A model generated the notes under the pieces. That model was not told where the DNA came from. It saw nothing but the letters and a program-made list of their open reading frames with translations, and searched no databases. Both the position numbers and the translations under genes were made by a program. A stretch of 48,006 nt of DNA from Clostridia bacterium (GTDB lineage: Bacteria; Bacillota; Clostridia; Oscillospirales; Acutalibacteraceae), in assembly GCA_017516485.1 (NCBI GenBank), contig JAFXCH010000042.1:1-48006 (forward strand). Direction: 5' to 3'. This document shows positions 31,363 to 39,590 of this stretch, in pieces. How positions within the stretch are numbered: position 1 is the first letter of the stretch; every line of letters begins with the position of its first letter.

Positions 31363-31448
31363 TTGCAATTTGGCAACAAAAAGGATAATATAATAATGAT
31401 AAAATATCATTAAAATGGGTGAGAATTTGTATACTTTTTGAAAAGTAT
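31363..31448 (+). promoter_or_regulatory. Candidate promoter and palindromes upstream of oadA
   Basis: TTGCAA (31363-31368), 17 bases, then TAATAT (31386-31391) is the best promoter match. Just downstream is the palindrome AATGATAAAATATCATT (31395-31411), and a second palindrome with 8-bp arms, ATACTTTT/AAAAGTAT (31431-31448), lies before the ribosome binding site. Operators or an RNA hairpin are possible. The remainder of the roughly 300-base spacer is AT-rich with no gene visible. Confidence 0.5.
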
Positions 31449-31473
31449 GGTTTTGCACCCTGAAAGGAAAGTT

Positions 31474-32868
31474 ATGGCACAGATGAAAACTGTTCAGTTC
31501 ACCGAAACCGTACTCCGTGATGCCAACCAGTCACTCATCGCTACGAGAATGCCTATCTCCGATTTCAAGGAGATTCTCAGCGAGCTTGACAAGGCAGGCT
31601 ACTACTCACTTGAATGCTGGGGCGGCGCAACATTTGACTCATGCTTGCGTTACCTTAATGAAGACCCGTGGGAGAGACTGCGTACAATCAAGGCAGCTTG
31701 TCCCAACACAAAGCTCCAGATGCTTCTCAGAGGTCAGAATCTGCTTGGTTACAAGCATTATCCCGACGATGTAGTACGCAAGTTTGTTGCAAAGAGTGTT
31801 GAAAACGGTATTGACATCATTCGTATTTTCGACGCACTCAACGACCTTCGCAACGTTAAAGTTGCTGTTGACCAGACTCTTAAGAGCGGTGCTATCGCAT
31901 CAGGCACAATCTGTTACACAACAAGCCCCATCCACAGCATTGAAAACTATGTCAAGGTTGCAGAGGGCTTTGAGAAAATGGGCGTACAGACAATCTGTAT
32001 CAAGGATATGGCAGGTATCCTCGCTCCGCAGGAAGCTTACGACCTTGTAAAGGCTATCAAAGAGTCTGTAAAGCTTCCCGTAGTTGTCCACACACACTCA
32101 ACAACAGGCCTCGGTATGATTACACTTCAGAAGGCTGTTGAGGCAGGTGCAGACGTTATCGACACAGCTATTTCAAGCCTTTCCGGCGGTACATCACAGC
32201 CCCCGACGGAAACTCTTGCATACGCACTCAAAAACCAGGGCTACAATGTTGAACTTGATTCAAAGGTTCTTTCAAAAATCAACTCTTACTTCAAGCCCCT
32301 TCGTGCAAAATATCTCGAAAGCGGCGTGCTCAACCCCGTTGTTATGGCAACAGAGACCGACGCTCTCGATTACCAGATTCCCGGCGGTATGCTTTCCAAC
32401 CTTGTTGCACAGCTCACCGCACAGAACAAGCTCGACAAGCTTGACGAAGTGCTTGCTGAAACACCCAGAGTCCGTGAGGATCTCGGATATCCGCCCCTCG
32501 TTACTCCCATGAGTCAGATGGTCGGTGTTCAGGCTACATTCAATGTACTTCTCGGTGAGAGATACAAGAACATTTCCAAAGAAGTCAAGGCCTATATCAA
32601 GGGCGAATACGGTCAGGCTCCCGGCAAGGTAAGCGAAGACCTTCAGAAACTTGTCCTTGGCGACGAAAAGCCCTTTACAGGCAGATTTGCCGATACTCTT
32701 GAGCCCGGTTTTGAGGCTGCAAAAGAAGAAATCGGCGACCTTGCTCACAGCGAAGAAGATGTACTTTCCTATATCGCATTCCCGCAGCAGGCAAAGGCAT
32801 TCTTTGAAGAAAGAGCTGAAAGAGAAAAGCGCACATTCAAATATACAATACAGGAAATCAAGGAGTGA
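31474..32868 (+). CDS. oadA: Na+-pumping oxaloacetate decarboxylase alpha subunit (carboxyltransferase)
   Basis: 464 residues from ATG 31474 with GAAAGGAAAG upstream; a longer frame from 31438 includes the leader palindrome. The TIM-barrel carboxyltransferase domain has 'TETVLRDANQSLIATRM' (metal Asp16), 'IRIFDALNDLRNV', 'CIKDMAGIL' and metal histidines in 'VVHTHSTTGLG'. It moves the carboxyl group of oxaloacetate to biotin. The C-terminal biotinyl domain present in fused OadA proteins is missing; a separate carrier protein is encoded two genes on. Pyruvate carboxylase subunit B is the main alternative, but the following OadG and OadB favour the Na+ pump. Confidence 0.93.
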   Translation: MAQMKTVQFTETVLRDANQSLIATRMPISDFKEILSELDKAGYYSLECWGGATFDSCLRYLNEDPWERLRTIKAACPNTKLQMLLRGQNLLGYKHYPDDVVRKFVAKSVENGIDIIRIFDALNDLRNVKVAVDQTLKSGAIASGTICYTTSPIHSIENYVKVAEGFEKMGVQTICIKDMAGILAPQEAYDLVKAIKESVKLPVVVHTHSTTGLGMITLQKAVEAGADVIDTAISSLSGGTSQPPTETLAYALKNQGYNVELDSKVLSKINSYFKPLRAKYLESGVLNPVVMATETDALDYQIPGGMLSNLVAQLTAQNKLDKLDEVLAETPRVREDLGYPPLVTPMSQMVGVQATFNVLLGERYKNISKEVKAYIKGEYGQAPGKVSEDLQKLVLGDEKPFTGRFADTLEPGFEAAKEEIGDLAHSEEDVLSYIAFPQQAKAFFEERAEREKRTFKYTIQEIKE

Positions 32869-32875
32869 TTAATCA

Positions 32876-33454
32876 ATGTTAGCAGGAAAAGCACTCGGCT
32901 TGACTGACGCTCTCATGGTTTCCGGTGTCGGTATAGTCGTTGTTATGGCAGAGCTTGCTCTTCTGGCTGTGTTGGTCTTTTTGCTCTCCCGTCTTGTAAG
33001 TGCATTGGTCAACAAAAAATCGACAGAAGAAATTACGGACACAGCATCCGAATCCTCTGCCGCTGTTACGGTTACCTCTGCAGGCTCAGGCTCACAGACA
33101 AGCCATGTTGAGCTTTACGGAGTTGATGAGCAGACAGCCGCCACAATAATGGCAACAGTCAGCCACCAGACAGGTGTTGCGCTCGGGCATCTCGATTTCA
33201 AGTCAATCAAACTGCTCGATACTCCGCTTGAACTGATAGGTGTTGATGAACCCACAGCCGCAATGGTTATGGCAGTAGTAAGCCACCAGACAGGAATTCC
33301 GCTCGAAAAGCTCGATTTCAGACGTATTAAGTCTCTTGAGTGGAACGGAATTGACGAGCCCACAGCCGCAATCATTATGGCGTTGGTAAGCCACCAGACA
33401 GGTATACCGCTTGAGCGTCTCGACTTTAAATCAATCAAACTTATTGAGGAATAA
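32876..33454 (+). CDS. oadG: Oxaloacetate decarboxylase gamma-like subunit with three C-terminal repeats
   Basis: 192 residues, longer than ordinary OadG (about 80-120). One N-terminal TM helix (about 15-45) is followed by a Ser/Thr-rich linker (47-75), the usual OadG layout. After that, three copies of a 36-40-residue unit follow (79-114, 119-154, 155-190) with the core 'DEPTAAxxMAxVSHQTGIPL' and 'LDFKSIKL'. The C-terminal Ala-rich helix of OadG-type subunits appears triplicated here. OadG holds the complex together and helps assembly. It starts seven bases after oadA. Confidence 0.8.
   Translation: MLAGKALGLTDALMVSGVGIVVVMAELALLAVLVFLLSRLVSALVNKKSTEEITDTASESSAAVTVTSAGSGSQTSHVELYGVDEQTAATIMATVSHQTGVALGHLDFKSIKLLDTPLELIGVDEPTAAMVMAVVSHQTGIPLEKLDFRRIKSLEWNGIDEPTAAIIMALVSHQTGIPLERLDFKSIKLIEE
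33110..33451 (+). repeat. Three in-frame repeats in oadG
   Basis: Three tandem coding copies of about 108-120 bp encode the repeated SHQTG-containing unit. Copies 2 and 3 are the most alike. Confidence 0.85.
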
Positions 33455-33476
33455 AAGAAAGGTTAGGTAAAAAACA

Positions 33477-33905
33477 ATGAAATATATCGTAACACTTAAC
33501 GGCAAAAGCTATGAAGTAGAGGTCAACGAGACCGATGCAGTTATCACAAACGTTTCAACAGCTGCAGGTGCAGCTCCCGCTCCTGTTGCAGCACCCGTAG
33601 CAGCTCCCGCTCCTGTTGCAACTCCTGCTCCCGCAGCAGCACCCGCAAAGGAAGAAGCTCCCGCACCCGCTCCCGTAGCTGCTCCTTCAGCTGAAGGCAA
33701 GAACGTTGTAGCTCCCATGCCCGGCACAGTTCTCAAGGTTCTCTGCAGTGTAGGTCAGGCTGTCAAGGCAGGCGACACACTCTTCATCCTCGAGGCTATG
33801 AAGATGGAGAACGAAATCACAGCAGAATGTGACGGCGTTGTCAAGCAGATTCTTGTCGGCAGCAGCACAGTTGTCAACACAGACGACGTTCTCGCAGTTA
33901 TCTGA
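33477..33905 (+). CDS. Biotin carboxyl carrier protein of the decarboxylase
   Basis: 142 residues: a short N-terminal beta segment ('[18 protein letters not shown]'), a long Ala/Pro linker (about 29-72) and a biotinyl domain with the biotinylation signature '[10 protein letters not shown]' (K109). It carries CO2 as carboxybiotin from the alpha subunit to the membrane beta subunit. In fused systems this domain is the end of OadA; here it is separate. It lies between oadG and oadB with GAAAGGTTAGG upstream. Confidence 0.95.
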
Positions 33906-33927
33906 GTAAAGTGAGGCATTTCTCAAT

Positions 33928-35100
33928 ATGACATTTTTAGGTGTTCTTGAAGGCCTCTGGTCAAGCTCAGGCTTTGCTTCCCTCGGTTGGCAACAGGGCG
34001 TTATGCTTATTGTTTCCTTCGGCCTTCTTTATCTGGCAATAGTCAAAAAATTTGAGCCTATGCTCCTTCTTCCCATCGCATTCGGTATGATGCTTGCAAA
34101 CCTGCCCGAAACAGGCCTTATGGCTGACCCTGCAGGTCTTATGAGCGGCGTAAAAGAACCGGGGGCTCATTGGTATGATGACGGCGTATTGCGACTTATT
34201 TATGCAGGTGTAAAGAGCAGTATTTTCCCATGCCTTATCTTTATGGGTGTCGGTGCTATGACCGATTTCGGTCCCCTGCTCGCAAACCCATCCAGCCTTC
34301 TTCTCGGCGCAGCAGCACAGCTCGGTATTTATGTGGCATTCATCATAGCAATACTTTTCAAATTCACACCCGAAGAAGCTGCATCAATTGCAATCATCGG
34401 CGGTGCTGACGGTCCTACAGCCATCTTTACAGCTTCAAAGCTGGCATCTCACCTTCTCGCACCTATTTCGGTTGCAGCTTACTCCTATATGGCACTTATT
34501 CCGCTTATTCAGCCGCCCATTATGCGTGCTCTCACAACAAAAAAAGAGCGTGAAGTAAAAATGGGTCAGCTTCGTAAAGTAAGTAAAACCGAAAAGATTG
34601 TTTTCCCGATTATCGTTACAGTACTCTGTGCACTTCTTATCCCCTCAACAGCTCCCCTTATCGGTATGCTGATGATTGGTAACCTCTTCCGTGAGAGCGG
34701 TGTAGTCGAAAGACTAAGCGACGTATCACAGAATGCACTTTGTAACATCATAACAATCCTGCTCGGTGTAACAGTCGGTGCAACCGCAAACGGACAGCAA
34801 TTCCTTCAGGTTAAGACACTCGGCATCATTGTTATAGGCCTTGTAGCTTTCTCTTGCTCAACAGCAGGCGGCGTACTGCTCGGCAAGCTGATGTACATCA
34901 TCACAAAAGGCAAGGTCAACCCCCTTATCGGTGCCGCAGGTGTATCTGCCGTACCTATGGCAGCACGTGTTGCACAGGTTGAGGGTAAAAAAGCTAACCC
35001 TTCAAACTTCCTTCTTATGCACGCTATGGGCCCCAACGTCGCAGGCGTTATCGGTTCTGCGGTTGCTGCAGGCTTTATGATGCTCCTTTTCCAGTCTTAA
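33928..35100 (+). CDS. oadB: Na+-transporting decarboxylase beta subunit
   Basis: 390 residues, about nine to eleven membrane segments, OadB/GcdB/MmdB family. It includes the conserved '[18 protein letters not shown]', containing the essential aspartate, and '[19 protein letters not shown]' at the end. It decarboxylates carboxybiotin and exports Na+, making a sodium-motive force. It completes the alpha-gamma-carrier-beta operon. Its last 26 bases overlap the end of mecA on the other strand. Confidence 0.95.
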
Positions 35101-35662
35101 AGCTCAGTTTTTCCACAGCTTTTTTATCGGTGATGCACTGCCAATGCTCCGCTGTGTGAGCATAGAGCAGTGCCCCTTCACCGCTTACATTACCAAACTC
35201 GGAAAGGCATGGTTTGATTAACCCTGCTCCCGCTGTTTGTGTACGCACAAACAAACGGTACTTATTTTCATTTTTATAAAGTCGGCTTTCAACCGTAAAG
35301 CCCGAAAATCTTATCCGCTCGGCACAGTTAATAAGTTCAGTTACATTATCAAAATCGCAGGCTATGTAGTCTGATTTTTTAACAAGATATCTTTTTGTTT
35401 TTGTTGTGACCTTTTCCTGTTCAACAGAAAAGAAGAGCACACATCCGCCCGATTCGCGGCGCATCGCTTCAACAAGCAGTCTGCCCGAGGTGTTTATTTC
35501 ACGCCCGAGAGTTCTGCCTGCACGGGAGAGTATAGTCCATATCACTCTCTTCGTTTCAATTTTCGAATAATCCATCTCCTCATAGGTGATGTTTAGTTTT
35601 TTCATATCATCTGCCGACAGCTCCACTATAATCGCATCGTCGGCAAGAAGTTCAATCTTCAT
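35075..35662 (-). CDS. mecA: MecA-like adaptor protein
   Basis: 195 residues. The N-terminal domain '[21 protein letters not shown]' and '[15 protein letters not shown]' match the MecA substrate-binding half; the C-terminal half with '[29 protein letters not shown]' matches the ClpC-binding half. MecA delivers substrates to ClpCP and controls competence and sporulation regulators in Bacilli. ATG 35662 has AGGGGGAG upstream. It is convergent with oadB, sharing 26 bases, and divergent from the Rnf-like operon. Confidence 0.88.
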
Positions 35663-35742: not shown

Positions 35743-36687
35743 ATGGCAAAGCAAAGCAAACTCAACAAGACACGCTCGCTTCAGCTTGATTTACTCGCTA
35801 TGCTTTTAGTTCCCATGCTAAGCTCATGGTATTTCTATGGCCCTGGCGCAATACGTCTTATCTGCATAAGTGTTATCACCTGTGTGCTTTGCGAGCTTAT
35901 CGGCAGACGCATACTCAAGCAGCCGTCTACCGTCTCCGACCTGAGTGCGGTTGTAACAGGCATATTGATTGCTCTTATGCTTCCTGCCAACGCTCCCGCC
36001 TGGCTGCCTGTTTTAGGCGGTATGTTTGCAATATTTGCCGCTAAGCTGCCCTTCGGTTTCGTCGAAAACCTGCCGTTTTCCCCTGCTGCAGCAAGCTTCG
36101 CTTTCTTAACTATATGCTTCCCCGATCTGATTTTTGACTATCCGCGTATATCTGCTTTAAGTACGGCTCTTTCGAGCACAAGCAGTGTTTCACTCACTTC
36201 CATGCTCGCACAGAATACTTCTGTCAGCCTTCGCTCGGTAAAGGCGCTCGATATACTTGTCGGCAACTTCCCCGGCCCTATGGGTGCAAGCTGTATAATT
36301 GTACTTTTAGGCAGTGCAATATATATGCTCATACGACGCACAAAGCTCTTTGTAACAACCGCAGGTTTCCTTTCAGGTGCCGCACTTATGGCAATCTGTT
36401 TCCCGAGAGTTACAAACCTGTTTTCATCACTTGTACTTGAGCTGTGTGCAGGATGTATGATTTTTACCGCAATCTTCCTTATTACGGAGCAGAGCACTCA
36501 ACCCAGGCACATACTCAGCCGCCTGCTTTACGGATTTACCGCAGGTGTTTCGTGTATGCTTATGCGTCGATTCGGTGCATTTGAAGAGTGTGTATGTTTT
36601 GCGGTACTTATTATCAATGCAGCATGGCCCGTTGCTGATAAAGCGTTTATGAAGATAATTAATAAAAGGATGAAAAAGAGTAAATGA
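35743..36687 (+). CDS. rnfD: RnfD/NqrB-like membrane protein lacking the FMN motif
   Basis: 314 residues, about nine hydrophobic segments. Family marks are 'TVSDLSAVVTGILIALMLP', 'FAAKLPFGFVENLPFSPAAA' (canonical RnfD has a G-G-x-G-x-N-x-F-N-P-A block here), 'GNFPGPMGASCIIVLLG' and the late 'FLITEQSTQP'. Canonical RnfD/NqrB attach FMN covalently to a threonine in an S/T-G-A-T motif; the corresponding stretch here is Ser/Thr/Leu-rich and has no such motif. First gene of the operon, with AAGGAG upstream of ATG 35743. No convincing promoter is visible in the 80-base gap to mecA. It is a homologue by sequence; redox activity is doubtful. Confidence 0.85.
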   Translation: MAKQSKLNKTRSLQLDLLAMLLVPMLSSWYFYGPGAIRLICISVITCVLCELIGRRILKQPSTVSDLSAVVTGILIALMLPANAPAWLPVLGGMFAIFAAKLPFGFVENLPFSPAAASFAFLTICFPDLIFDYPRISALSTALSSTSSVSLTSMLAQNTSVSLRSVKALDILVGNFPGPMGASCIIVLLGSAIYMLIRRTKLFVTTAGFLSGAALMAICFPRVTNLFSSLVLELCAGCMIFTAIFLITEQSTQPRHILSRLLYGFTAGVSCMLMRRFGAFEECVCFAVLIINAAWPVADKAFMKIINKRMKKSK

Positions 36688-37496
36688 AAATTTCACAAAC
36701 CGTTGCTGCGTTGCTTGCTACAGCTATTCTATGCATAGCTTTGGTTTCATGTGACCGCACCCCCGTAAAGGATGATGCATCATCCGCGGAAACATCGAAT
36801 GAAGAAGTGCTGAACACATTTGAATCAGCCGATACAAGCACAACCGGCAATCCAGAAACAGAAGAAGAATTGACTACAGGCTTAATCACCACGTTGCCCG
36901 GCCAAAGTACAACTGCAGGCAACACAACAGCTGTTACGCCGACCAAGGTAACAACAACTGCGCCCTCAACGACAAAACCGGTTACAACAACAGCACCGTC
37001 GACAACTGCACCCTCAACAACCGTACCGTCGACAACTGTTCCCGACATTACAACAACTGCACCAAACATATCAACACAAACTACAACTACGCCGCCGGTA
37101 ACAGAGCGCCCGACGGATATAGTAACCGACAGTGAACCTATGGATAACGAGCAGACTGTAATTGCCGCAATAAACAGATACAGGGTTGAGGAAGGTTTGG
37201 GAGAGCTTGCTTATTCACCCGAACTTTCTGCGGCAGCTGATATCAGAGCAAAAGAACTTTCGGAAAGCTTCTCTCATATCCGTCCGGTCGGCGGCTTGTT
37301 CAACACTATCAGCCCGCTTGCACAGGCAGAAAACATAGCCAAAGGCTACTCCGCAGCCGAACAAGTTGCAATTTTCTGGGCAAAAAACGAAGGCTACAGG
37401 GAAGTAATGCTCACAAAGAACTTCACATTAACAGGTGTAGGCTGTTACTACGATAACGCAACCGACACATATTATTGGGTACAGCTTTTCGGCTGA
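36684..37496 (+). CDS. CAP (SCP/PR1)-domain lipoprotein in the RnfG position
   Basis: 270 residues. A lipoprotein signal ends 'IALVSCD' with lipidation cysteine C23. A long Thr/Pro/Ser linker (about 60-135) includes repeated TTAPST-type units, followed by a CAP domain (about 150-270) with 'ELSESFSHIRPVGG', 'AENIAKGY' and 'GVGCYYDNATDTYYWVQLF'. CAP proteins are extracellular; bacterial roles are mostly unknown. Its ATG overlaps the rnfD stop (ATGA), so translation is coupled. Canonical operons have RnfG here, also a single-anchor protein with its domain outside, but no flavin-binding S-G-A-T is present and the fold is different. Confidence 0.87.
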   Translation: MKISQTVAALLATAILCIALVSCDRTPVKDDASSAETSNEEVLNTFESADTSTTGNPETEEELTTGLITTLPGQSTTAGNTTAVTPTKVTTTAPSTTKPVTTTAPSTTAPSTTVPSTTVPDITTTAPNISTQTTTTPPVTERPTDIVTDSEPMDNEQTVIAAINRYRVEEGLGELAYSPELSAAADIRAKELSESFSHIRPVGGLFNTISPLAQAENIAKGYSAAEQVAIFWAKNEGYREVMLTKNFTLTGVGCYYDNATDTYYWVQLFG

Positions 37497-37530
37497 TAAC
37501 ACTCACCCCAAGCAGAAAGGAGGAAAAGAA

Positions 37531-38646
37531 ATGGCAGCCAACAGAAAATCACCGGGAATGTTAATGCATAATGCAGGTATATTCAACCCCGTCTTAGTAC
37601 AGGCCGTCGGTTTGTGTCCCGTTGTCGCTATGGCAACCTCACTCAGGAGTGCCGCTTTGCTTGCCGTTGTTTCTTCAGTAATAGTCACGCTAAGTGAATT
37701 TATTGCTTCACTTTTCCTCAAGCGTGTCCCCCGTTGGGTAAGAATAGGCATATACATCATTTTAGGTGCGGCAATCGTTTCACCTTTTATGATTTTAATC
37801 GAGCGTGTTAACACTCCTCTTTTCAGCTCATTGGGTATTTACCTGCCTATAATGGCGGTTAACTCCCTTATCGTGCTCAGGTGCGAGCGATTTGCCGTTA
37901 AAATCTCACCCGTCAAAGCTCTTTTGGACGGTATTACCGCCTCTGTTGGCTATGCCGCAGTACTGATTATTACGGGCTTTTTCAGAGAGCTTCTCGGCAA
38001 CGGCACACTGGCAGAGCGTACAATTTTCAAATCACCGGCACTTACGGGTATGCTTCTGCCCTTCGGCGGTTTTCTTATACTCGGCTTTGCAAGTGCAGCT
38101 CTGCGCACAATGGTTGCAAAATTCTGGCCGAAATATCTCGACAAAAAGCAGCCGAAACCCGGCAGTAAAAAGAAACACCGTACCGAACCTGTTAAAAAGC
38201 TGACAACTGCTCCCGTCACAAATATTGTGCCTGAATTTGTCGCAGATGAATCACCGTTCACACTTGAAGAGTTTGATATAATAACTAACGAGCCTTCTGA
38301 AGATACAGCACCTGAAACAACCGTTGAATCCGAATCAATAACCGAAACTCAGCAAGAGCCTGCAGTTACGCACGAAGAAAATATCGTTGCAGAGCAGCCT
38401 GCCGAAGAAAATTCGGAAAAAAAAGAAGAAAACAACGAAGTTGAATCCGATTCCGAAGAAACGGAAGAATCTGTCAAAGAAGAGCCGAAGCCTGTTTTTG
38501 CTGACCTTACAATTGACGATATCTCTACCGACAGCAGTGCAGAAGGTACAACGTACACAGATGCTGACGAGGAACTTGACGCACTTATGAACCGCTCAAT
38601 TGACGAGATTCTCACAAAGCAGAAAAAGGAGGAAAACGAAGAATGA
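37531..38646 (+). CDS. rnfE: RnfE/NqrD-like membrane protein with long acidic tail
   Basis: 371 residues; typical RnfE has about 200-230. Residues 1-200 are the six-helix Rnf/Nqr domain, with 'NPVLVQAVGLCPVVAMATS' retaining C29. The second half-site, normally N-C, is 'VNSLIVLRCERFA', so the expected cysteine is S112; C118 lies nearby. Residues 203-371 form an added Glu/Ser/Thr-rich cytoplasmic tail ending in KQKKEENEE, probably disordered, perhaps a docking arm. AAAGGAGG precedes ATG 37531, 34 bases after the CAP gene. Confidence 0.85.
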   Translation: MAANRKSPGMLMHNAGIFNPVLVQAVGLCPVVAMATSLRSAALLAVVSSVIVTLSEFIASLFLKRVPRWVRIGIYIILGAAIVSPFMILIERVNTPLFSSLGIYLPIMAVNSLIVLRCERFAVKISPVKALLDGITASVGYAAVLIITGFFRELLGNGTLAERTIFKSPALTGMLLPFGGFLILGFASAALRTMVAKFWPKYLDKKQPKPGSKKKHRTEPVKKLTTAPVTNIVPEFVADESPFTLEEFDIITNEPSEDTAPETTVESESITETQQEPAVTHEENIVAEQPAEENSEKKEENNEVESDSEETEESVKEEPKPVFADLTIDDISTDSSAEGTTYTDADEELDALMNRSIDEILTKQKKEENEE

Positions 38647-39227
38647 TTTTTGCATTTTTTAACGCCTCTGTTTTTGCCGTACTGTTGCAAAACCTTGTTT
38701 TCAACGGCGGTTTCGGTATGAGCGAAGCTATCAGAATCGCAACAAAGCCGAAGGAGTTTTACCCTATCGCTCTGCTTGTTGCATTCTTTACAAGTGCTAC
38801 TGCCGCAGTCTGCAGTGCACTTGACTCAATTAATATAATCAATACCCTTTCCACAGCAGAGCACCTCGGTATTTACTGCGTAGTTCTTGCTGTTATTTAC
38901 CTTGCATTTACAGCGGTTGTGATACTTATTACGCACAACAAAAAGAACACTCACCGTATCGGTATGGCGGCAGTTAATACACTTGTACTTGCCGTTCCGA
39001 TTATTAACCGCCGTGCCGCATTCAACCTTGCCGAATCAATAGGCTTCGGTCTTGGTGCAGGCGTTGCATTTATTATCGCAGTGCTCCTTATTTCTGCGGC
39101 TGAAGACCGTATCAAGGCAAACGAAACCATGAGCAACGCGTTCAAGGGCAAACCGGCACTGTTTATCTATATCGCACTGATTTCCCTCGGCTTTGCAGGC
39201 CTTACGGGTCAGTCTCTCTTTGTCTGA
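38643..39227 (+). CDS. rnfA: RnfA/NqrE-like membrane protein lacking cluster cysteines
   Basis: 194 residues, six hydrophobic helices. Alignment by eye to RnfA: 'AVLLQNLVFNGGFGMSEA' occupies the place of the A-L-L-V-N-N...G-I-C-P-F segment, so the cysteine is replaced by S27, and 'VNTLVLAVP' replaces the N-C-A-V-L-G site (T113). Overall length, inverted-repeat layout and the C-terminal 'LGFAGLTGQSLF' are conserved. ATG overlaps the rnfE stop by four bases. Without cysteines it cannot form its half of the intramembrane iron-sulfur centre described for Rnf/Nqr. Confidence 0.85.
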   Translation: MIFAFFNASVFAVLLQNLVFNGGFGMSEAIRIATKPKEFYPIALLVAFFTSATAAVCSALDSINIINTLSTAEHLGIYCVVLAVIYLAFTAVVILITHNKKNTHRIGMAAVNTLVLAVPIINRRAAFNLAESIGFGLGAGVAFIIAVLLISAAEDRIKANETMSNAFKGKPALFIYIALISLGFAGLTGQSLFV

Positions 39228-39237
39228 GGTGATACCG

Positions 39238-39573
39238 ATGGCAGATAATGAACTCAACTACAGCAATCAAAACACCGAAAGCGAAGAAGAATTCCGTCCG
39301 ATAATACCCGAGCCGGAAATTCACCGCAGACCTATTATCGGCTTTAAAAAGAATTATCCCGTTGAAGAAAACCCAACCTCAACACATACCGAAAGCTTTG
39401 CTCAGCAGGAATTCAAACGCAAAGTGCGTATGGGAATTATATATGCAGTTTTATTACTCGCAGCCTTTGTTTTTGCTTTTATAATTACCGATACCTGCAT
39501 CAAAATTTCGAGCGAGCCGATTGCGCAGACCGAGGTTGCTGATTCCGCAAGCGAAGAAAGCACACTTTCATAA
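39238..39573 (+). CDS. Small single-TM protein closing the Rnf-like operon
   Basis: 111 residues from ATG 39238 with GAGGTGAT upstream. The N-terminal ~60 residues are acidic and polar with 'EFRPIIPEPEIHRRPIIGFKK' divided around a basic patch; one TM helix spans about 64-84; the C-terminus is short and acidic. It occupies the place of RnfB but has only one cysteine (C87) and no iron-sulfur motifs. I recognise no family. Its start is 10 bases after rnfA, and its stop codon lies within the terminator stem. Confidence 0.75.
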   Translation: MADNELNYSNQNTESEEEFRPIIPEPEIHRRPIIGFKKNYPVEENPTSTHTESFAQQEFKRKVRMGIIYAVLLLAAFVFAFIITDTCIKISSEPIAQTEVADSASEESTLS

Positions 39574-39590
39574 AGAAAGTGTGCTTTTTT
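39557..39590 (+). terminator. Terminator of the Rnf-like operon
   Basis: AAAGCACACTTTC and GAAAGTGTGCTTT form a 13-bp perfect stem around ATAAA, then a T-run. The TAA stop (39571-39573) is inside the loop. Confidence 0.92.

Follow-up and report, generated by a model that had tools for sequence, protein, structure and literature searches.

A divergent RnfD-RnfE-RnfA gene set in one order of Clostridia as a possible non-redox paralogue of the Rnf membrane core

Rnf and NQR have so far been viewed as redox pumps alone, and Na+-NQR kept the cluster of the A/E pair and both covalent flavins and added a new reductase, NqrF. The papers cited here, each represented by excerpts, describe electron transfer and ion passage coupled by conformational change in both complexes, in which A and E open inward and outward, G swings on the outside and D may gate ions (PMC12174285). 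The metal site of the Clostridium tetanomorphum Rnf complex is formed by RnfA Cys25 and Cys113 together with RnfE Cys26 and Cys109, and flavin mononucleotide (FMN) is attached to RnfD Thr153, close to Arg130 and Glu185 (PMC9588780). NQR sets a precedent for change of function in this family, having arisen by duplication of an rnf operon, loss of rnfB and adoption of a new role, with cofactors lost in the transition from RnfC to NqrA (PMC4014512). Partial systems have also been described, in the form of Nqr/Rnf-like two-subunit complexes made of an RnfG-like flavin subunit and a fusion of D with an NAD(P)H (nicotinamide adenine dinucleotide, phosphate) domain; these retain flavin transfer and have no E or A (PMC8238504, PMC10979944). 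Here we analyse a 48,006-nucleotide stretch of a Clostridia bacterium genome (contig JAFXCH010000042.1; the whole stretch is called the window), which contains a divergent RnfD-, RnfE- and RnfA-like triad that we designate dDEA, with subunits dD, dE and dA. The operon is made up of the following features.

35743..36687, + strand: dD, a divergent RnfD/NqrB homologue of 314 amino acids (PF03116, E 9.8e-61)
36684..37496, + strand: CAP lipoprotein of 270 amino acids, with a lipobox and a long Thr-rich linker (PF00188, E 5.4e-15)
37531..38646, + strand: dE, a divergent RnfE/NqrD homologue of 371 amino acids with a long acidic C-terminal tail (PF02508, E 3.4e-35)
38643..39227, + strand: dA, a divergent RnfA/NqrE homologue of 194 amino acids (PF02508, E 2.4e-17)
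39238..39573, + strand: dTM, a single-pass protein of 111 amino acids with homology to the N-terminal tail and transmembrane (TM) anchor of DUF4015 (PF13200) proteins
about 39554..39590, + strand: terminator hairpin at the operon end, followed by T's (fold z -6.7)

An initial annotation of this DNA had described five linked genes with ATGA overlaps and a strong terminator, and this description holds: ATGA overlaps join dD to CAP and dE to dA, the remaining two gaps are 34 and 10 nucleotides, and the 56-nucleotide terminator stretch folds at -25.4 kcal/mol, with none of 200 shuffles equally stable, a hairpin that a simple consensus terminator scan did not list. The proposed kinship to RnfD, RnfE and RnfA was likewise borne out by Pfam, where dD matches PF03116 alone. 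The NCBIfam rnfD, rnfE and rnfA models match the window proteins below cut-off (142.7, 109.5 and 45.1 bits, against 207, 213 and 229), and it is because all three stay below that we call the proteins divergent. A Pfam scan of the window genes found no rnfB, rnfC or rnfG at the locus, nor any reductase or FMN-binding gene, and there was no PF04205 protein among the genes scanned. The reported lack of B, C and G is correct for the locus and does not extend to the genome, where a complete canonical operon (apbE, C, D, G, E, A and B, in that order) lies on another contig, C31 (L005). PF02508 accordingly occurs in four places in this genome, two in the dDEA locus and two on C31, and the dDEA set is therefore a paralogue rather than a reduced sole copy.

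To see how widely the set is kept, we compared genome assemblies, many of them metagenomic. Strong relatives of the window dE are present in 10 of 10 other genomes of its genus (E 2.6e-91 or better), and in seven further genera of its family weaker ones lie next to a D-E-A triad. A scan of named genomes with dA yielded 80 loci that were kept (L056-L135, here the named loci; 64 have at least 2 kb on both flanks), among which dD is found in 78, dE in 79 and dA in 80. None of the 80 has rnfB, rnfC or rnfG, and constant company of these three genes is thus not what the relatives display. The complete order D-CAP-E-A-TM is seen in nine of the ten loci of the window's genus, the tenth being cut by a contig end. 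An order-wide sample of 295 genomes contains dDEA in at least 33, that is, 31 scoring at least 150 bits with a wider profile (one of them, G156, assigned by score alone) plus G298 (135 bits) and G057 (132 bits), which were assigned by gene set. Across a class sample of 391 genomes, all nine matches of at least 180 bits fell within the window's order and the next best reached 126 bits; because diverged dDEA score down to 132 bits (G057), weaker members may have escaped detection in other orders. Among the high-scoring loci outside the order, 20 were read, and 20 of 20 carried rnfB beside A and E. By gene content, then, the three membrane genes are conserved together, and B, C and G are not part of the set.

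The residues that hold the cofactors in Rnf are largely gone from this set. The named and unnamed locus collections overlap, and the alignment counts leave out short 1.5-kb copies of loci present elsewhere in longer form, duplicates of the window and of the canonical operon, and identical sequences. Among the 103 dDEA loci with both A and E, none of the four cluster Cys is kept in 32, one is kept in 71 and more than one in no locus; canonical loci have all four in 36 of 37 and two in the other. The window keeps one of the four, both Cys of dA being lost and the second in dE replaced by Ser, and the one most often retained across dDEA is RnfE Cys26 (67/104). At the FMN site, Arg130 and Glu185 of RnfD are present in all 33 aligned canonical rows but in 0 of 104 and 0 of 103 dDEA rows, respectively. 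The Thr153 column itself reads Thr in 28 canonical rows, Ser in 5 and a gap in 3, and in dDEA (n=104) Ser in 90, Gly in 8, Thr in 3, Ala in 2 and Asn in 1. These alignments give good support to a loss of redox function in dDEA, with the route broken at the intramembrane [2Fe-2S] and RnfD FMN sites.

In a joined A+E+D tree (81 rows, near-copies removed), one branch separates 52 dDEA from 29 canonical rows with full support (Shimodaira-Hasegawa-like approximate likelihood ratio test, SH-aLRT, 100), and on this tree the dDEA paralogues form a monophyletic family that lies apart from the canonical Rnf clade. The canonical copies that dDEA genomes also carry group among the canonical rows of the order, which indicates that the dDEA split predates the families carrying both; because several dDEA rows sit on long branches or are unusual in composition, inner placements are unsure. 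Ratios of nonsynonymous to synonymous substitution (dN/dS), taken for the window against two congeners, were 0.12 and 0.10 for dD, 0.08 and 0.11 for dA, 0.26 and 0.18 for dE, 0.10 for dTM (the other pair being saturated) and 0.30 and 0.24 for CAP, with comparison values of 0.08 and 0.06 for oadB, 0.14 and 0.13 for mecA and 0.01 and 0.02 for rhaA. By this measure dDEA is under purifying selection, and clade-wide invariant residues are seen in its proteins. The predicted structure of dD (52 rows; predicted local distance difference test, pLDDT, 90.6) has RnfD as its best match in the PDB (7zc6_D, template modelling (TM) score 0.81).

Set beside the known systems, dDEA is like Rnf in that all three proteins are homologous over their full length and follow the order D-E-A, and unlike it in lacking G, B and, in the window, C, in its lost cluster Cys and FMN contacts and in its place outside the canonical clade. 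The difference from Na+-NQR lies in the loss of the A/E cluster and the FMN site, with neither a reductase (NqrF) nor an NqrC-like gene at the locus. The two-subunit complexes, as far as the excerpts of PMC8238504 and PMC10979944 describe them, resemble dDEA as partial Rnf/Nqr systems whose RnfD-like subunit lacks the flavinylation Thr, and are otherwise its reverse, dDEA keeping E and A and going without the flavin subunit, the NAD domain and the RnfD-PF00175 fusion.

What, then, accompanies the membrane core? The 80 named loci have rpe as a neighbour in 67, mecA in 63, DUF4015 (at least 80 bits) in 28 and CAP in 9, and the commonest identifiable dDEA partner is a membrane-anchored, glycosyl-hydrolase-like DUF4015 protein. 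This partner consists of an N-terminal tail followed by a single TM helix, to which an outer hydrolase-like domain is often joined, with anchor-only forms elsewhere. Its predicted structure (pLDDT 77) is closest to Cthe_0052 (4s1a, TM score 0.87 by target length), followed by GH31/36/20 barrels at low TM score, and DUF4015 has been described fused to YkyA, a deacetylase partner, in the excerpts of PMC12700454. A predicted single-TM or longer TM protein lies 3' of dA in 96 of 116 loci with room, a count made by hydropathy only on the overlapping collections with identical rows retained, and in which a few entries are unrelated long genes. The window's dTM matches no Pfam family above cut-off, PF13200 included; it aligns with DUF4015 proteins over the tail and TM only, around an F-K-(N/D)-YP motif, and the family hidden Markov models of dTM and DUF4015 match each other. 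dTM is thus like these proteins in its anchor and unlike them in having no hydrolase-like domain. This homology means that the 111-residue protein is not the stand-in for RnfB that had been suggested, and that the window's genus combines a bare anchor, lacking the outer enzyme-like part, with a lipid-anchored CAP protein. Replacement of RnfG by CAP, also suggested at first, fails as a rule, as all nine CAP loci are among the ten of the window's genus.

DUF4015 is also found beside intact rnf operons. It lies directly 3' of a complete canonical rnfCDGEAB in 7 of 25 loci of the order from dDEA-free genomes (L053, L054, L055, L234, L237, L277 and L278, of which L055 and L237 are weak matches and L277 and L278 belong to one genus; L276, cut at a contig end, was counted as without DUF4015). 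L054 has mecA upstream too, as beside dDEA. Canonical loci in dDEA genomes have DUF4015 in 0 of 21, a difference with a Fisher p of 0.011 uncorrected for kinship. Other orders have DUF4015 after rnf in 2 of 20 loci (L260 and L262, both of one family), and on this ground we rejected the idea of an order-specific partner. It is possible that DUF4015 is an unrecognised accessory of Rnf.

Our favoured reading, to which we assign a probability of about one half, is that dDEA, a paralogue of the Rnf core, has been neofunctionalised into a non-redox membrane platform for envelope proteins and derives from a duplicated rnf-DUF4015 operon. Duplication of an rnfCDGEAB-DUF4015 operon would have come first, before the present dDEA-carrying families diverged; one duplicate would have retained electron transfer, and the other would have lost G and B, plus C in the window's lineage. 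In the resulting platform, dD, dE and dA would assemble with one another as their Rnf counterparts do and would retain the anchor protein in the membrane, thereby placing, and perhaps gating, an envelope-acting domain at the outer face. Charges suggest a probable RnfG-like topology for the outer-facing single-pass partner, N inside and C outside. The acidic C-terminal tail of dE, at least 60 residues long in 61 of 79 rows measured, is probably cytoplasmic and could dock a cytoplasmic partner together with the N-terminal tail of the anchor; the ability to pass ions, by way of D or of the A/E pair, may have been kept or lost. Two candidate features of dE were set aside, a conserved GG..E end, which on sequence inspection is probably the dA ribosome-binding site read in frame, and an ELE-LM-RS-DD motif in the tail, which is confined to some lineages. 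Taken further, a bifunctional rnf-DUF4015 operon may have been duplicated and its functions parted between the copies. Reuse of the membrane core, as first proposed, is supported by its place outside the canonical clade, its conserved B/C/G-free gene set and its lost cluster ligands and FMN contacts. Among the purposes put forward with that proposal, the best fit is a scaffold for an external protein; ion movement may or may not apply, and a reduced electron path is disfavoured.

Several observations weigh against this platform reading. Most of the 80 named loci yielded no DUF4015 gene, and CAP and dE evolve faster than the other genes of the locus. Within the same two families, five canonical loci whose genomes have no dDEA (L248-L252) are also without DUF4015, so lineage could explain the contrast of 0/21 with 7/25. 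The assembly, the topology and the contacts of dDEA with DUF4015, dTM or CAP are themselves what we infer. On the side of redox chemistry, the Ser that fills the FMN-Thr column in most dDEA rows might be flavinylated, as ApbE accepts Ser as an attachment residue according to excerpts of PMC12052999. A new Cys next to a Glu (C118 in the window) is present in 83 of 104 dE rows and co-occurs with Cys26 in 63 of 104. Lastly, a degenerate RnfC-like protein, C-prime, precedes dD in 10 of 20 wider loci and in L279, and both of its CxxCxxCxxxC motifs (eight Fe-S Cys) are kept in 10 of 10 checked, so that cytosolic Fe-S persisted for a while in some lines. An open reading frame for rpe at 8020-8661 in L167, picked by position, was not counted as C-prime. 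The claim that C is absent is therefore true of the window and not of all relatives.

Foremost among the alternatives is a channel or transporter, in which a cofactor-free D or an alternating-access A/E pair moves an ion or a small solute. Kinship of RnfD to urea and ammonium transporters and inward and outward states of A/E are described in the excerpts of PMC12174285, and the folds next closest to the dD model after RnfD/NqrB are urea transporters (3me1, TM score 0.40, E 3e-3) and AmtB. Scores of about 0.4 are weak, the resemblance is inherited from RnfD itself, and a channel leaves the anchor, DUF4015 and CAP partners unexplained. For its weak match we dropped the dD fold as evidence of a solute channel, and we consider this alternative unlikely.

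An alternative or simplified redox complex would make use of the remnants listed above, with flavin on the dD Ser, a thiol pair in dE and C-prime-like Fe-S centres or soluble donors. The presence of apbE in the window's genome and of Ser in 5 of 33 aligned canonical RnfD, in addition to the 90 of 104 dDEA, would accord with it. Such a complex would have to work with at most one cluster ligand, without the FMN contacts and without RnfG. Moreover, the position just before the flavin acceptor holds Ala in 31 of 33 aligned canonical rows and in just 4 dDEA rows; C-prime has lost the GGAxFP flavin/NADH motif in 10 of 10 (ExEP survives in two), and neither the window nor any of the 80 named loci has C-prime. 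We judge a redox complex of this kind distinctly unlikely. Equally doubtful in our estimate is a redox-independent, ion-driven transducer, in which ion flow through D or A/E, formerly coupled to electrons and to the swing of RnfG, would move an anchored outer domain (DUF4015, or CAP in the window's genus); it may, by analogy with MotAB or ExbBD, represent a new class of envelope motor. A bolder corollary of this reading is that DUF4015 may be an extra subunit in some intact Rnf complexes, the second function then being ancestral.

That dDEA is an accessory or regulator of canonical Rnf, acting as a swap-in core, an assembly factor or an inhibitor, finds some support in the presence of canonical RnfC_N in 40 of 42 dDEA genomes. 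One genome that is 99% complete (G232) has dDEA without RnfC_N or a second PF02508 pair, all three subunits are deeply diverged, and genomes that lack dDEA have canonical operons just as complete, all of which makes this role improbable. Decay of a duplicated rnf operon, with dDEA as what is left of it, would account for the loss of B, G, C and the cofactor ligands and is hardly credible given dN/dS of 0.08-0.26 for dA, dD and dE, open frames with the gene set kept in 78-80 of the 80 named loci, and the clade-wide invariant residues.

A second case of cluster loss, which lends support to the platform reading, comes from genus g78 (G168, G081, G115 and G128, 84-87% complete; loci L241, L273, L274 and L275), whose genomes each have one rnf locus, with two PF02508 matches and one RnfC_N match. 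The locus has the order C-D-G-E-A-B-DUF4015, except that no B is found there in G168. Both cluster Cys of RnfA and Cys109 of RnfE, three of the four in all, are lost in all four genomes, with the RnfC motif GGSAxP in 4/4, RnfG SGAT in 3/4 and RnfD TPL in 4/4; the sister genera are canonical. Weighing the other way, a free tree places g78 on the dDEA side with support of 97, which would mean one loss of the cluster, not two. Constraining g78 to the canonical rows of its own family gave a tree 12.7 log units better (approximately unbiased test, p-AU 0.716), and a single loss shared by dDEA and g78 was set aside in favour of two losses, which are preferred and not proven. From these trees, g78 probably lost the cluster independently of dDEA.

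In the literature searched, which mostly excludes subscription papers, neither a cluster-less Rnf core nor a link between rnf and DUF4015 was found described. The A/E pair, which carries electrons across the membrane in Rnf, persists without its cluster under selection in one order, and if the core works without electrons, its function is separable. As redox and non-redox copies occur in one cell, roles of A/E and D apart from electron transfer become testable. Annotation by subunit name would label dDEA loci as Rnf and so overstate the energy metabolism of uncultured bacteria.

Upstream of the operon lie two further features, and rhaA with a NIF3-like gene lies 3' of it.

35075..35662, - strand: mecA-like gene, divergent from dD (PF05389), a context common to many relatives
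31438-35100: oxaloacetate-decarboxylase-like operon (alpha and beta subunits), upstream of the mecA-like gene

The oxaloacetate-decarboxylase-like operon precedes the locus in the window's genus, and rpe occupies that place in other genera. A conserved prkC-rsgA-rpe neighbourhood was considered and dropped, as the genes upstream of rpe vary. Two canonical loci have features of their own: a canonical-looking rnf locus, L030 (G053), keeps two of the four cluster Cys, one of them shifted by one place, and L250 (G030) has a second RnfG-like gene. Finally, the window's CAP domain has Tyr where nine other aligned congeners have His, in GH(R/K) or a nearby position.

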